Assembly (NCBI GenBank): GCA_027049035.1
Contig: JALTVI010000087.1
Coordinates: 1-48,057, forward strand
Direction: 5' to 3'
DNA from: Sulfurovum sp.
Lineage (GTDB): Bacteria; Campylobacterota; Campylobacteria; Campylobacterales; Sulfurovaceae
Length of the DNA: 48,057 nucleotides
In this document: positions 8,715 to 31,799 of the stretch, in pieces
Layout of the letters: each line of letters opens with the position of its first letter
Numbering within the stretch: position 1 is the first letter of the stretch
Notes under the pieces: model-generated
Database searches by the model: none
Seen by the model: only the letters and a program-made list of their open reading frames with translations
Told to the model about the DNA's origin: nothing
Program-made: the position numbers and the translations under genes

Positions 8715-9437
8715 CTATTTATGAAAAATATCACAGCGGTTCATCAATTTCTTTAGGTCCATTACGGCCAGCTTTCCGCGCTTGGAGAGAATGATCTCCT
8801 CCTCTTTGAGCTTCTGCATCTGTGTAGAGACGACGGAGCGTACCGAACCGATGAGCTCTGCAAGTGATTCGTGCGAAAGGTTGTTGATAAGCCGCACCGG
8901 GTAGTGCCCCTCTTTTTCATCAGGGCACTGGTCGGTATGGTGCAAGATGAGGTTGGCAAGGCGTGTGGTGGTGTCGTGAAAGACAAGCGATTCGCTGAAC
9001 GCTTCGACCTCCCGCAGGCGCTCGCCAAGGTAAGGCAGAAAAGACTCATTGAACTGCGGATGCTCTTTGACCCATTCTCTTGCACGCTGTAAGGGGATTC
9101 TGAGGAGCTTCATCGGCGCCATAGGAACGGGAAAGACGATGTGCTCCTTGCCGTCAAGCAGCGTAAAAATGTCGAAGATGTCTCCGGGAGCGAGCAGGAA
9201 AAGTGCAAGGCTTCTGCCTGTTTCGGGGTCTATCTGTGTTACTTTCATCTTTCCGTCGATAACGATATGCATATACTTCGTACTGATATCAGGATCGATA
9301 GATTCTCCCTTTTTCCACTCTACGGGTGTGCACTCCTCAACGAGACTGCGTCGTGTCTCCTGGTCGAGCCCGCCAAAGAGCGGCGTGTTTCTGAGTACTT
9401 CACAGGCGTTTGCGTAGCAGGGGTGGTCATTGGTCAT
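8715..9437 (-). CDS. Crp/Fnr-family transcriptional regulator
   Basis: A 240-residue protein with an N-terminal cyclic-nucleotide-binding-type beta barrel (about 20-120: LFLLAPGDIFDIFTLLDG), a dimerisation helix (about 125-160) and a C-terminal winged HTH (LSHESLAELIGSVRSVVSTQMQKL, 187-210). It lacks the four-cysteine Fe-S cluster of FNR and the cAMP-contact motif of CRP, so the signal is unknown; C7 and C12 are the only paired cysteines near the start. In the recognition helix R200 aligns with CRP Arg180, while the CRP Glu181 and Arg185 positions are Ser201 and Thr205. It overlaps the upstream small gene by 11 bases and is probably co-transcribed and autoregulated from the site at 10008-10023. 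Confidence 0.93.
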   Translation of the reverse strand: MTNDHPCYANACEVLRNTPLFGGLDQETRRSLVEECTPVEWKKGESIDPDISTKYMHIVIDGKMKVTQIDPETGRSLALFLLAPGDIFDIFTLLDGKEHIVFPVPMAPMKLLRIPLQRAREWVKEHPQFNESFLPYLGERLREVEAFSESLVFHDTTTRLANLILHHTDQCPDEKEGHYPVRLINNLSHESLAELIGSVRSVVSTQMQKLKEEEIILSKRGKLAVMDLKKLMNRCDIFHK

Positions 9438-9951
9438 AACGGGGTGTCCTTTTTATATGCAGCTTTACGTCTCTATTATAACCAAACCGTTCTGCCATTT
9501 TACTAATCATGGAAGCTGTGTTCATCTCAAGCCCCTCAAGCTCGGCAAAGAACCTTCCATGCCCCCTCTCGCTGGCGTAGTGACGCAGACTCTCCATGGA
9601 GTCTCTGATGATGCTCTCTTCGCTTGCAAGCACTTCGTTGAAGCGGTGCTGTGCCGAATGCATTTTATGCTCTTCGCAGGCAAGCCTTTGGAGTGCATCT
9701 TTGTGGATGATTTCGACAATCTGTTCGCTCGCCCTCTTCAGGTACGACTCTCTGAAATTATCCGAATCACGAAGTGCGGACTCTATCCCCTCGAGCATTT
9801 CATATACGACACTCTCAAGAGAGACACCCGCCTTTTTGGAGTCTTCCAGCGCTTTGCCAAAGAGTTCCAAGACCGCTTCTTCCGTGGCTTCTTCGGCAGA
9901 TTTTGTCTGCAGGAGTTTTGCCAGGGTATGTTTCATCTTCTCATCATACAT
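9427..9951 (-). CDS. Conserved helical protein of unknown function, partner gene of the Crp/Fnr regulator
   Basis: A 174-residue, charged, almost wholly helical protein beginning MYDEKMKHTLAKLLQ, with no signal peptide or membrane segment. The start at 9951 is chosen over upstream Mets because AGAGGAG lies 7 bases before it and the predicted promoter (TACAAT at 9985-9980) gives a transcript start near 9973. Its 3' end overlaps the start of the regulator gene by 11 bases, so translation is probably coupled and the two proteins may work together. I do not recognise a family with certainty. A cytoplasmic sensor or adaptor for the regulator is a guess only. Confidence 0.7.
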   Translation of the reverse strand: MYDEKMKHTLAKLLQTKSAEEATEEAVLELFGKALEDSKKAGVSLESVVYEMLEGIESALRDSDNFRESYLKRASEQIVEIIHKDALQRLACEEHKMHSAQHRFNEVLASEESIIRDSMESLRHYASERGHGRFFAELEGLEMNTASMISKMAERFGYNRDVKLHIKRTPRYDQ

Positions 9952-9979: not shown

Positions 9980-10050
9980 ATTGTAGACAAAGCGCTGTGT
10001 GCTTTTCTGTAAGCTGGCTGACATTCAGCTTTTCTATGGGGTGCTATAAT
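9980..10050. promoter_or_regulatory. Divergent promoters sharing a CRP-like operator (regulator operon / BI-1 gene)
   Basis: TGTAA-GCTGGC-TGACA at 10008-10023 is a near-perfect palindrome of the CRP class. On the plus side TATAAT is at 10045-10050, 22 bases away, for the Bax-inhibitor gene. On the minus side TACAAT is at 9985-9980, 23 bases away, for the 9951-8715 operon. Neither promoter has a convincing -35. The operator centre is near -41.5 for both predicted starts, the class II activation position. Confidence 0.65.
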
Positions 10051-10083: not shown

Positions 10084-10791
10084 ATGTTAAACAGCAACAT
10101 ATACGACAGAGAACTCAGCCGACACGACACCAATGTTCTGCTGAATTCCGTTTACCAGTGGATGATGGTTGGATTGCTCATCTCGGCACTAAGCGCCTTT
10201 ATGGTGGTTCACAGTGCAACGATGCTGCACCTTCTCTTTGGCAACCCCTATATGATATGGGTACTCTTTCTCATTGAGCTGGGACTTGTCGTCGCCATCT
10301 CGGCAGGAATCAACAAGATGGATGTCTCCACTGCCCGAGTCCTCTTCATTCTCTTTTCCATTGTCGACGGCATGACACTGGCAAGCATCTTCATCGTCTA
10401 TACCGAAGCCTCCATCGCCACCACCTTTTTCATCGCGGCAGCAACATTCGGTGTTATGAGCCTCTACGGCTACTTTACCGATACCGATCTGAGCTCATGG
10501 GGCAATCTGCTCTTTGCAGCGCTCATCGGGCTTATCATCGCGATGGTCGTCAATTTCTTTCTGAAAAGTCCGGCATTCGAATGGTGGCTGAGTGTGATCG
10601 GTGTCATCATTTTTGTAGGACTGACCGCCTACGATACACAGAAGATCAAAGCACTCGGTGAAGCGATGGCAGAGGATGGAGACCCGCAAAGTCTTGGGCG
10701 TATCGCCATTGTCGGTGCACTGACACTCTACCTCGACTTCATCAACCTCTTCATTTTGATGCTGGAGTTTTTTGGCAACCGAAGAGATTGA
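10084..10791 (+). CDS. Bax inhibitor-1/YccA family membrane protein
   Basis: A 235-residue polytopic protein starting MLNSNIYDRELSRHDTNVLL, with about seven transmembrane segments. The family ending GALTLYLDFINLFILMLEFFGNRRD is preceded by the GLTAYDTQKIK motif typical of the BI-1/TMBIM (YccA/YbhL) group, small pH-sensitive Ca2+-leak-type proteins linked to membrane stress. AAAGGATTGTACA precedes ATG 10084; the reading frame is open further upstream but that part lies inside the divergent promoter region and is not expected to be translated. It is divergent from the Crp/Fnr operon and probably controlled by the shared operator. Confidence 0.9.
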   Translation: MLNSNIYDRELSRHDTNVLLNSVYQWMMVGLLISALSAFMVVHSATMLHLLFGNPYMIWVLFLIELGLVVAISAGINKMDVSTARVLFILFSIVDGMTLASIFIVYTEASIATTFFIAAATFGVMSLYGYFTDTDLSSWGNLLFAALIGLIIAMVVNFFLKSPAFEWWLSVIGVIIFVGLTAYDTQKIKALGEAMAEDGDPQSLGRIAIVGALTLYLDFINLFILMLEFFGNRRD

Positions 10792-16707: not shown

Positions 16708-16751
16708 TGTTAGCCAGCTTACAGATGTGGTTTACCTTCCACCGTTATACT
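16708..16751 (+). promoter_or_regulatory. yfdX promoter with CRP-like operator
   Basis: TGTTA-GCCAGC-TTACA at 16708-16723 lies within a 24-base near-palindrome (16704-16727, one mismatch pair plus a CA centre). TATACT at 16746-16751 starts 23 bases after it, so the operator is centred about -42 from the predicted start. The arms could also act as a weak hairpin after the ferritin gene, but no T-run follows. Confidence 0.6.
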
Positions 16752-19768: not shown

Positions 19769-20023
19769 TTAGACAATCTCTTCGAGGTCGTGTGCGAGTT
19801 CATCCACTTTTGACTTTTCTCTGCTTTTGAGGTGAACCGCGGTCGCCCAGAGGGCGCCAATGAAACTGAGAATCACGAAGATCCAGGGGTTGATCATATC
19901 GTAGGCGTAGTAGTCGATCATCGCCGTCAGGGCAAGAAAGAGTACGAAGTAGACACTGAAGAGTGCCGCCTTGTGTTTGAAACTGGTTCTATTTTTTCTC
20001 TTCGTCTTCGATCTCGTCGACAT
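19769..20023 (-). CDS. Small 2TM membrane protein
   Basis: An 84-residue protein with a basic N-terminus (MSTRSKTKRKNRTSFKHKAA), two helices (about 20-40 and 46-64) and an acidic C-terminal tail ending ELAHDLEEIV. ATG 20023 is chosen because GGGGAGG lies 5-6 bases upstream, although the frame is open further. It overlaps the end of the HdeD gene by 35 bases and is probably translated in coupling with it. No named family is recognised with confidence; it resembles 2TM-domain proteins. Confidence 0.7.
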   Translation of the reverse strand: MSTRSKTKRKNRTSFKHKAALFSVYFVLFLALTAMIDYYAYDMINPWIFVILSFIGALWATAVHLKSREKSKVDELAHDLEEIV

Positions 20024-20570
20024 AGATCCCTCCCCACAATAGTGCAAATCCGTCAAAGAGCAGGCTGATACCCACAAAGAGCCCGACCATGAAGAATGAG
20101 CTAAACGGCCATCCTATGACAAAGACAACGCCCAGTGCCAGAGAGGTGATGGCGTTGATGAGCCAGAGCCACCAGACTTTCTGCGGTTTGAGCGAGAACG
20201 CCAGTGCAAATCCCGCAAAGGCGTCTATGAAGAAATAGACCGCAAAGAACATCCCCAGTGCGGCAATGCCCTGTGCGGGGTAGAAGATCATCAAAATACC
20301 CACAAGCGTGAGCAGGAAGCTCTTGAGCCACCCTGCCCAGTCACGCCGGTTGCTCATCCAGGTCAGCGTCCCCGATGAGATACCTGCAAAGAGCATCAGA
20401 TAGGCGACAAACGCCAGTGTCGTAAATGACATGAATGTCGGGAAGAAAATGCCTATGGAGCCGAGCACGATAAATGCCACGCCGCTTATTTTTGCATACT
20501 TCTTGAAGTTGTCCACCAGATTTTTATTGATATTCATCTCCGGTGAGAGCGTACTGTTCCAGTTCCACAT
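19989..20570 (-). CDS. HdeD/DUF308 family membrane protein
   Basis: A 193-residue protein with six helices in three repeated pairs, typical of HdeD (DUF308). Marks are AFIVLGSIGIFFPTFMSFTT, WLKSFLLTLVGILMIFYPAQ and LGVVFVIGWPFSSFF. E. coli HdeD lies in the acid fitness island and contributes to acid resistance at high cell density. It starts 12 bases after the YfdX stop (AAAGGACGCAACC as RBS), forming a yfdX-hdeD-2TM operon. As YfdX is also acid-linked in E. coli, the operon is likely an envelope-stress unit (inference). Confidence 0.88.
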   Translation of the reverse strand: MWNWNSTLSPEMNINKNLVDNFKKYAKISGVAFIVLGSIGIFFPTFMSFTTLAFVAYLMLFAGISSGTLTWMSNRRDWAGWLKSFLLTLVGILMIFYPAQGIAALGMFFAVYFFIDAFAGFALAFSLKPQKVWWLWLINAITSLALGVVFVIGWPFSSFFMVGLFVGISLLFDGFALLWGGIYVDEIEDEEKK

Positions 20571-20582
20571 GGTTGCGTCCTT

Positions 20583-21569
20583 TTAGTTGACCGTTTTCTT
20601 TTCGTCCTGATGTGCCTCTTTTTCAAAAGCAGGAGCCTCTTTTTTAGCCTTTTGTGCTTCGGCATTCTCATAGGCTTCCACTTTCTGTTCGGCAATGTTT
20701 TCAGATGTCTTCTGTGCCTTTTTGCTGCTGTCGATCAGACTCTTGATATCGTTCTTGAGCGTTTCGTAGAGTTTTGCGACAATGTTCTTGCCGTCGATCT
20801 CTTTTTCAATCTTCTCGATGTCGCTGTTAAGCGTTTTGTATGCCGCTTCGTGTCTGGAGACATAGCCGAGCAGCTCTGCACGCTTGAGCTCCTCTTTGGC
20901 GGCGGCAAGCAGCTTTTTGGCTTCCTCTTTCTTGTTCTTGTCGAGTTTGGAGGCGTCAAGAATCAGATCTTGCGCTACCAGCAGTGGCGTAGGAATGACC
21001 GCTTTGGCGACAACCAGAGAGTTCATTGCCGTTGCAAGCGTCTCAAACGCCGCTTTCTGGTCACCCTTCTTCAGTGACTCAAGCGCTTTTTTGGTCGCAA
21101 CAGGGTAGATCTTCATCGGAATGGAGATGACAGTGATATCCAGTTCATCCTTCATCGGTACCAGAACTGCTGTCGCGACCTGCGTATCGTGTGCCTTAAG
21201 CAGCTTCTGTGCCAACTCAAGGCGCGCTTCGATCACATCGGAGCTTCCAAGGAAAGCGAATGCCTGAAAACGCTCGTCAATGGGGACGATGTCAAGTGCA
21301 GGGTTTGCCTTGAGTGCCGCATCGAAACTCTTGTTCGCCGCTTCAAGTGCCTTCTGTGCAGCCTCTTTCTTGCCTGCCTGCAGTGCCTGCAGCGCAGCAA
21401 AGGCGTTTTGCATACCGGCAACAATCTCTTTGGGTGCCTGTTTATGGTTCTTCATCTCTGTCTGGGCCATATTGTGTACCAGCTCTTTTTTGTCCGTTTT
21501 TGCCTGAAGTCCGGTCGCTCCAAGAAGAAGTCCGCATGCCAGTGCCGAAAGTAGTACTCTTTTTTTCAT
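20583..21569 (-). CDS. YfdX family exported protein (copy 2)
   Basis: A 328-residue paralogue of the protein at 16787, with signal peptide MKKRVLLSALACGLLLGATG and cleavage near ALQA-like GLQA. Family marks are ALDIVPIDERFQAF, TVISIPMKIYPVATKKALES and KAVIPTPLLVAQDLILDASKL. It differs in lacking the N-terminal HHFWAFGEAPDH insert and in having an added low-complexity C-terminal tail of about 40 residues rich in E, K and A. ATG 21569 after AAGGATTGAAA is preferred to a TTG two codons upstream. First gene of the yfdX-hdeD-2TM operon. Confidence 0.85.
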   Translation of the reverse strand: MKKRVLLSALACGLLLGATGLQAKTDKKELVHNMAQTEMKNHKQAPKEIVAGMQNAFAALQALQAGKKEAAQKALEAANKSFDAALKANPALDIVPIDERFQAFAFLGSSDVIEARLELAQKLLKAHDTQVATAVLVPMKDELDITVISIPMKIYPVATKKALESLKKGDQKAAFETLATAMNSLVVAKAVIPTPLLVAQDLILDASKLDKNKKEEAKKLLAAAKEELKRAELLGYVSRHEAAYKTLNSDIEKIEKEIDGKNIVAKLYETLKNDIKSLIDSSKKAQKTSENIAEQKVEAYENAEAQKAKKEAPAFEKEAHQDEKKTVN

Positions 21570-21691
21570 TTTCAATCCTTATGAAATATATTTTATTCAT
21601 TTATATTGTATAGGGTTTGGTATAACGGATATTTAATGAATTAGGTAGGAGGGAGCAATGAGTAGTGAGTAGTGCTTCGGTTTGATATTGA

Positions 21692-30297: not shown

Positions 30298-31698
30298 CTA
30301 CCCCAGATAGACCGTCTCTTCAGGTTCGACGATGTGGGTTTTGATGTTCAGTGCATTGGTCAGTACGCTGCGCAGAATCACCTCCTTGTCTTCCTCACCG
30401 TGGATCAGGTGAATGCTTCTGAGTCCCTCGATGCCAGAGACCCACCGTAGAATGGAGCGCTGGTCGGCATGGGCTGAGAAGCCGTTAATGGTATGTACAG
30501 AAGCGCGCACCAGGATGTCTTCATTGTAGATCTTCACCCAGCGTGAGCCGTCTACAATATCACGCCCTAGCGTGCCTACAGCCTGGTAGCCCACGAAGAT
30601 GACGGCATTCTTTCGGTTCCAGAGGCGGTTCTTGAAGTGGTGCAGTATGCGTCCGCCCGTACACATGCCGCTGCCGGCGATGATGATGGCACGGCGGTCG
30701 TAGTCGTTTATCTTTTTGGAGGCTTCTACATCGAGCGTGTAGGTGAGCCCCTCGAAATCGAAGATAGTGCCTGTCTCTTTCTTGAACGCCTGGCAGTGCT
30801 CACCAAGCTCCTCTGCGTACTTGCGGTAGATATCGGTTGCCTTCATCGCCATGGGAGAGTCAAGGAATATCTTGCACTGGGGAAGCTCTTTTCGGTCATG
30901 CATCTGCTTGAGAATACAGAGGATCTCCTGCGTACGCTCCACAGCAAAAGAGGGAATGATGACATTCCCCCACTGCTGCATCGTCTCTATAATGACTCGC
31001 TTGAATTCATCGATACTCTCATCGATGCTCTGGTGGTTTCGGTCACCGTAGGTCGATTCGACATAGAGATAGTCGGCATTTTTGCAGGGCGCAAGCGGTG
31101 GCATGACCATATCGGTGTCGTTGCCGATATCGCCGGAGAAGACGACACGCTGCCATACGCCGTTTTCGTGGTAGTCCACCTCTATGAAAGCCGACCCCAG
31201 GATGTGCCCTGCATTGCGGTAGGTGATTTTGACGGCATCGTTAAGCTTGTATGTCGTGTCGTACTCGACGATCTGCCAGGTATGTTCAAACGTCTGCTTG
31301 ACATCCTCCTCGCTGTAGAGCGGTGCCCTCTCCTCTTCTTCCTTTCCTTTCCGCTGCGCCTTCTTGTAGCGGGTCTGGTAATCCTCTTCCATAATCTTCG
31401 CACTGTCAAGCAGTATCACTTCGGCAAGGTCGCGCGTTGCGGAAGTTGCATAAATTTTCCCGGAGTATCCCTCCTTGACGAGCTTGGGAATACGCCCCAC
31501 ATGATCAAGGTGGGCATGGGTTACAAGCAATATATCGACACTTTTTGGATCGAAGTCGAACGCGTCGTAGTTGCGTTCCTCCTCTTTGCCCTGGAACATC
31601 CCGCAGTCGATCATGACTGTCGGCCCCTTTTCGATCTGCAGAATATGACACGAACCGGTCACCACCTCAGCGGCACCGTATGAGACTACCTTTGCCAT
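30298..31698 (-). CDS. Beta-CASP metallo-beta-lactamase RNase (copy 2)
   Basis: A 466-residue paralogue of the protein at 120-1523, clearly more than half identical by eye, with the zinc motif HAHLDH at the same residues (61-66), FSGDIGNDTDMVMP, GSGMCTGGRILHHFKNRLW and NGFSAHADQ. It is expected to be a zinc-dependent endo/exoribonuclease. First gene of an operon with dedA and gpmA; AAGGAGAAGAT precedes ATG. The promoter has TATAAT at 31734-31729 and the shared CRP-like operator upstream. Both copies lie in operons with glycolytic genes. Confidence 0.9.
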   Translation of the reverse strand: MAKVVSYGAAEVVTGSCHILQIEKGPTVMIDCGMFQGKEEERNYDAFDFDPKSVDILLVTHAHLDHVGRIPKLVKEGYSGKIYATSATRDLAEVILLDSAKIMEEDYQTRYKKAQRKGKEEEERAPLYSEEDVKQTFEHTWQIVEYDTTYKLNDAVKITYRNAGHILGSAFIEVDYHENGVWQRVVFSGDIGNDTDMVMPPLAPCKNADYLYVESTYGDRNHQSIDESIDEFKRVIIETMQQWGNVIIPSFAVERTQEILCILKQMHDRKELPQCKIFLDSPMAMKATDIYRKYAEELGEHCQAFKKETGTIFDFEGLTYTLDVEASKKINDYDRRAIIIAGSGMCTGGRILHHFKNRLWNRKNAVIFVGYQAVGTLGRDIVDGSRWVKIYNEDILVRASVHTINGFSAHADQRSILRWVSGIEGLRSIHLIHGEEDKEVILRSVLTNALNIKTHIVEPEETVYLG

Positions 31699-31728: not shown

Positions 31729-31799
31729 ATTATATCACGTTTTCCCCTGCTAAAGTGTCAGTTGGATAACATGCTCTTTTTATGCAAATACGTTACAAT
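31729..31799. promoter_or_regulatory. Divergent promoters sharing a CRP-like operator (RNase-2 operon / LOG gene)
   Basis: TGTCA-GTTGGA-TAACA at 31756-31771. Minus-side -10 TATAAT at 31734-31729, 22 bases away; plus-side -10 TACAAT at 31794-31799, 23 bases away. Both promoters lack a convincing -35. This repeats exactly the arrangement at 9980-10050. Confidence 0.65.

Follow-up and report, generated by a model that had tools for sequence, protein, structure and literature searches.

A Candidate Crp/Fnr-Family Operator Shared by Divergent Promoters in Sulfurovum

One contig of a Sulfurovum genome (contig C66; the 48,057 nucleotides analyzed here are called the window) carries a palindrome between two back-to-back promoters, one for a BI-1 family membrane protein and the other for an operon that codes for a Crp/Fnr-family regulator. 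This arrangement raises the question as to which protein binds the palindrome and how binding affects transcription in either direction. Our answer, to which we assign a probability of about 80%, is that positions 10008-10023 are the operator of the neighboring regulator, that this operator occupies a class II position for both promoters, and that the bound protein most likely activates its own operon and the BI-1 gene. A YfdX gene and a beta-CASP/TIGR00730 gene pair would be controlled in the same way (Table 1).

Table 1. Predicted operators, promoter elements and genes in the window
Feature	Coordinates	Strand	Basis
Crp/Fnr-family regulator, 240 aa, proposed binder	8715..9437	-	HTH_Crp_2, E 6.7e-11; recognition helix GSVRSVVSTQ
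First gene of regulator operon, 174 aa, without confident family	9427..9951	-	homologues 5' of regulator in most relatives
Regulator operon -10 box TACAAT	9980..9985	-	invariant in 6 orthologous regions; predicted start ~9973
Shared operator TGTAAGCTGGCTGACA	10008..10023	.	exact match to TGTNAGYYRRCTNACA; present in orthologous intergenic regions
BI-1 gene -10 box TATAAT	10045..10050	+	invariant in 6 orthologous regions; predicted start ~10057
BI-1 family membrane protein (Bax1-I, PF01027), 235 aa	10084..10791	+	E 1.5e-56
Second operator TGTTAGCCAGCTTACA, one-sided	16708..16723	.	exact site; orthologues conserve operator
YfdX gene -10 box TATACT	16746..16751	+	22 bases from operator 16708-16723
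YfdX family protein (YfdX1), 328 aa	16787..17773	+	E 2.4e-26; orthologues carry operator too
MBL-fold/beta-CASP protein, first in minus-strand gene run	30298..31698	-	profile match
Beta-CASP operon -10 box TATAAT (TGA-TATAAT, extended)	31729..31734	-	spacing to 31756-31771
Third operator TGTCAGTTGGATAACA, one mismatch, two-sided	31756..31771	.	motif and two spaced -10 boxes
TIGR00730 gene -10 box TACAAT	31794..31799	+	spacing to 31756-31771
TIGR00730 Rossmann-fold (LOG-like) protein, 272 aa	31833..32651	+	profile match

The operator, its two promoters and their conservation

Re-examination of the intergenic region returned the operator of the initial annotation exactly, in sequence and in coordinates. 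Both -10 boxes also stand where they had been placed, but the distances of 22 and 23 given for them are coordinate differences: 21 bases intervene on the BI-1 side and 22 on the regulator side. With transcription starts set 7 nt past the -10 boxes, the operator is centered at -41.5 of the BI-1 promoter, as had been proposed for both directions, and at -42.5 of the regulator promoter. On the BI-1 side, the -10 element is of the extended type (TGC-TATAAT, 10042-10050, with TG at 10042-10043). The missing -35 boxes, which had been noted for both promoters, are uninformative here. Since sigma70 promoters of Campylobacter jejuni and Helicobacter pylori lack a -35 box as a rule (PMC3847290), this absence is not by itself an argument for an activator.

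The initial annotation had stated that its proposal would fall if the palindrome were not conserved between orthologous genes, and the proposal passed this test. Both -10 boxes and 13 of the 16 operator columns are invariant among six orthologous BI-1/regulator intergenic regions, in which most other positions vary. Most orthologous loci also have the palindrome TGTNAGYYRRCTNACA in front of the regulator operon. A matrix built from 31 distinct sites, including the three of the window, has the consensus TGTHAGYYRRCTDACA and places 16708, 10008 and 31756 at the top of the window, with no other site near them. The first two score 29.4 and 27.9, and the best score among 20 shuffled windows is 16.6; the third scores 15.7, which is borderline alone and depends on its two spaced -10 boxes. 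Because the ranked sites are part of the matrix and shuffling preserves base composition only, this ranking counts as supporting evidence and no more. Near matches at 10710 (within BI-1), 32874 and 12217 were dismissed because their scores do not exceed background. In L005 and L027 (G049), the BI-1 match is limited to the last 40 residues while promoter and operator are kept; the gene may be decaying there.

Which protein binds the operator

The regulator operon consists of two minus-strand genes, the first coding for a 174-aa protein and the second for the regulator. The C-terminal helix-turn-helix of the regulator is of the Crp type (HTH_Crp_2, 42.4 bits; cut-off 27), and residues 13-216 match solved Crp/Fnr structures; the N-terminal cNMP_binding match (E 2.9e-5, 24.4 bits) lies below its cut-off of 27.5. 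In an alignment with E. coli CRP, the protein has no equivalents of the cAMP contact residues Glu72, Arg82 and Ser83, and a mostly conserved His lies near the position of Arg82. The half-site of CRP is TGTGA and that of FNR is TTGAT. Position 4 of the half-site, averaged over the 31 sites, is C (0.43), T (0.43) or A (0.13) and hardly ever G (0.01). The earlier label "CRP-like operator" is thus appropriate in the sense of the Crp/Fnr family, but not in the sense of a CRP site. Identity with FNR is contradicted by the absence of Cys 7, 12 and 36 from several orthologues, such as L007, so that the 4Fe-4S cysteines are not conserved. NtcA is the best NCBIfam match, yet with 48.3 bits it falls far short of the equivalog cut-off of 244.95. 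The 174-aa protein contains an SxESxxYExxEG motif and may be a partner of the regulator; in one relative (L030, 9240-10726) the regulator occurs in two tandem copies.

We compared the distribution of operator and regulator over 78 genomes of the genus, calling the regulator at E <= 1e-40 and accepting exact operator copies only. The operator is present in 13 of the 15 genomes with the regulator and in 1 of the 63 without it (Fisher p 6e-12); sites away from the regulator locus give 9/15 versus 1/63 (p 2.5e-7), where both p values overstate independence because the genomes share ancestry, and motif and co-occurrence derive in part from the same genomes. In the lone genome with the operator only (G017), a site beside YfdX is followed by 10 nt before the contig stops, at the place that the regulator occupies in relatives. 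The two genomes with the regulator only (G042 and G045) code for a distant relative (42-43% identity) with a different helix, GSVRKVVNLN, and do not contain this operator. In operator-bearing genomes the recognition helix is GSVRSVV or closely similar. An exact site in G080 has no -10 box on either side and no regulator in the genome, and was set aside as a chance occurrence.

The same genome also encodes a paralogue (C57:684-1346) that is 31% identical to the window regulator and has the helix GTVRHVVERH. Beside such paralogues lies a different palindrome, TGCNACYTARGTNGCA, with a -10 box at 20-23 nt in 23 of 44 flanks. Each of the 17 genomes with an exact copy of TGCNACYTARGTNGCA contains the paralogue. 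In the genome of the window this palindrome occurs just twice at up to one mismatch, before the YfdX and HSP20 genes that adjoin the paralogue (C57:684-2400; L094, L108, L109). The helix GTVRHVV goes with TGCNACYTARGTNGCA, and GSVRSVV and its close forms go with the operator of the window. The fact that the sister operator tracks the paralogue supports the assignment of operator to regulator on both sides. Judged from these patterns, the protein that recognizes 10008-10023 is almost certainly the 8715-9437 product.

Spacing to -10 boxes and further targets

Of 38 non-redundant flanks, 24 have a -10 box with at least 5 of 6 matching bases at 20-23 nt, with few exceptions at 21 or 22 nt; other offsets gave about 2. 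The box is present on 20 of the 24 sides that face a gene start and on 4 of the 16 other sides. Hence, one-sided sites such as that of YfdX1 and two-sided sites such as that between the regulator operon and its divergent partner follow the layout of the genes. This partner varies: BI-1 in the clade of the window, and YfdX2, HdeD, ppsA or an EI24/CysZ-like gene elsewhere, while the spacing is constant. Such a fixed -10 distance, with the operator centered near -41.5, is the signature of a class II site, and its constancy over unrelated genes fits the prediction of class II activation.

In the window, the predicted targets are the regulator operon, BI-1, YfdX1, the beta-CASP run and the TIGR00730 gene. 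The initial annotation had described a repeat of the double layout at 31729-31799, and this was borne out, with 21 bases to the beta-CASP box and 22 to the TIGR00730 box; in genome G086, an exact operator precedes a beta-CASP homologue (L052) at unchanged spacing. The operator at 16708-16723 had escaped that annotation and is a stronger site. No operator was found upstream of the HdeD-YfdX2 pair of the window (19989-21575), although YfdX2/HdeD orthologues elsewhere have one. Outside the window, a one-mismatch site with a spaced -10 box precedes an FAD/NAD oxidoreductase gene (C45:140596). Among 28 two-mismatch sites examined there, only C86:24256 has a spaced -10 box (at least 5/6); it lies before an HdeD-like gene that is followed by an amino-acid-permease-like gene. 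A further one-mismatch site (C52:72256), within a translation-factor-like gene and without a -10 box, was rejected as chance.

The literature on tLST treats YfdX and HdeD as envelope-stress proteins (PMC8290217), which is the reason to read this set of targets as a stress regulon; the signal is probably envelope or protein-folding stress. The stretch from 12300 to 33536 is rich in stress genes (cytochrome bd, two YfdX, HdeD, CrcB, PPK2, a P-type cation ATPase and HSP20) and recalls tLST, with several of these genes named by eye only.

Mode of action and known systems

How may the regulator act at this site? We surmise that a dimer on 10008-10023 would occupy a class II position relative to each of the two divergent sigma70 promoters and probably activates the BI-1 gene as well as its own operon, the latter by positive autoregulation. 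We propose the same mode of action for the YfdX site (16708) and for the site that the TIGR00730 gene shares with the beta-CASP operon (31756). Alternatively, the same dimer might act as a repressor that blocks both promoters until a signal releases it, with negative autoregulation as a consequence. Such a block is sterically possible, as an operator centered at -41.5 extends into the -35 region, and the extended -10 elements of BI-1 (TGC-TATAAT) and beta-CASP (TGA-TATAAT) might fire unaided in a class of sigma70 promoters that needs no -35 box (PMC3847290). However, repressors tolerate many positions, and a distance of nearly always 21 or 22 nt across unrelated promoters points to contact with the polymerase. 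We consider repression unlikely and rank activation well above it.

The remaining alternatives concern the palindrome itself. That another Crp/Fnr protein of the cell binds it is conceivable, given the paralogue at C57:702-1346, but very improbable, since this paralogue has its own operator beside it and TGTHAGYYRRCTDACA tracks the window regulator. A chance palindrome near two -10-like boxes might be suspected from the looser two-mismatch pattern, which matches the window 8 times compared to 3.5 expected. We give this idea practically no weight: it is contradicted by conservation, co-occurrence and spacing, and refuted by the conservation test. By these sequence comparisons, the palindrome and its flanking -10 boxes are not a product of chance.

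Activation in both directions from one site has a precedent. As cited in PMC12781870 and PMC5434802, El-Robh and Busby (2002, Biochem J 368:835) described activation of divergent promoters by E. coli CRP at a single target, which is likewise one Crp-family dimer between back-to-back promoters. The double layout, called unusual and an argument for real function in the initial annotation, is indeed beyond chance, but as an arrangement it is not without example. In contrast to the E. coli case, the Sulfurovum regulator lacks the cAMP contacts and uses another half-site, and its arrangement is natural, presumably autoregulatory, and kept while partner genes change. When CRP is placed at -40.5 of one side of a bidirectional promoter in E. 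coli, transcription is activated on that side and blocked on the opposite one (PMC12825309), which makes competition a fair expectation at 10008-10023. The predicted starts are separated by only 84 bp, too little for two polymerases to bind without overlap, and the two directions therefore probably alternate rather than fire simultaneously.

The 16-bp two-fold operator, centered at about -41.5 or -42.5 ahead of a sigma70 -10 box, resembles that of class II CRP/FNR-dependent promoters but has another half-site, TGTHAG. Its ends, TGT-N10-ACA, recall the site of NtcA (TGTA-N8-TACA), another member of the Crp/Fnr superfamily, from which it differs by the conserved inner AGYYRRCT. The Sulfurovum gene set with YfdX, HdeD and small heat-shock proteins is similar to that of tLST, which is described with the MerR-like Orf1; in Sulfurovum, a Crp/Fnr regulator would be in control. 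A limited search of the open-access literature found no description of this regulator, operator or targets, and nothing on Sulfurovum together with YfdX. The type of control is therefore known, while the circuit looks undescribed. More tentatively, and with the odds against it, the locus may represent a conserved module in which one dimer on a symmetric double class II operator has to serve either its own operon or the divergently oriented stress gene, with mutually exclusive polymerases and a freely swapped partner, and in which sister regulators split one envelope-stress set (YfdX, HdeD, HSP20) by a change from TGTHAG to TGCNAC.

For an uncharacterized Campylobacterota regulator, these results provide a predicted operator, a promoter architecture and a directly testable list of targets, and they suggest a regulon for the YfdX/HdeD/BI-1 stress genes of Sulfurovum-like bacteria. 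With its other operator, the sister regulator provides a natural, small-scale test of DNA specificity in Crp/Fnr recognition helices. Two sites, L100 2539-2554 (G065) and L096 5954-5969 (G112), combine TGTHAG and TGYNAC half-sites and may be intermediates between the two operator codes.
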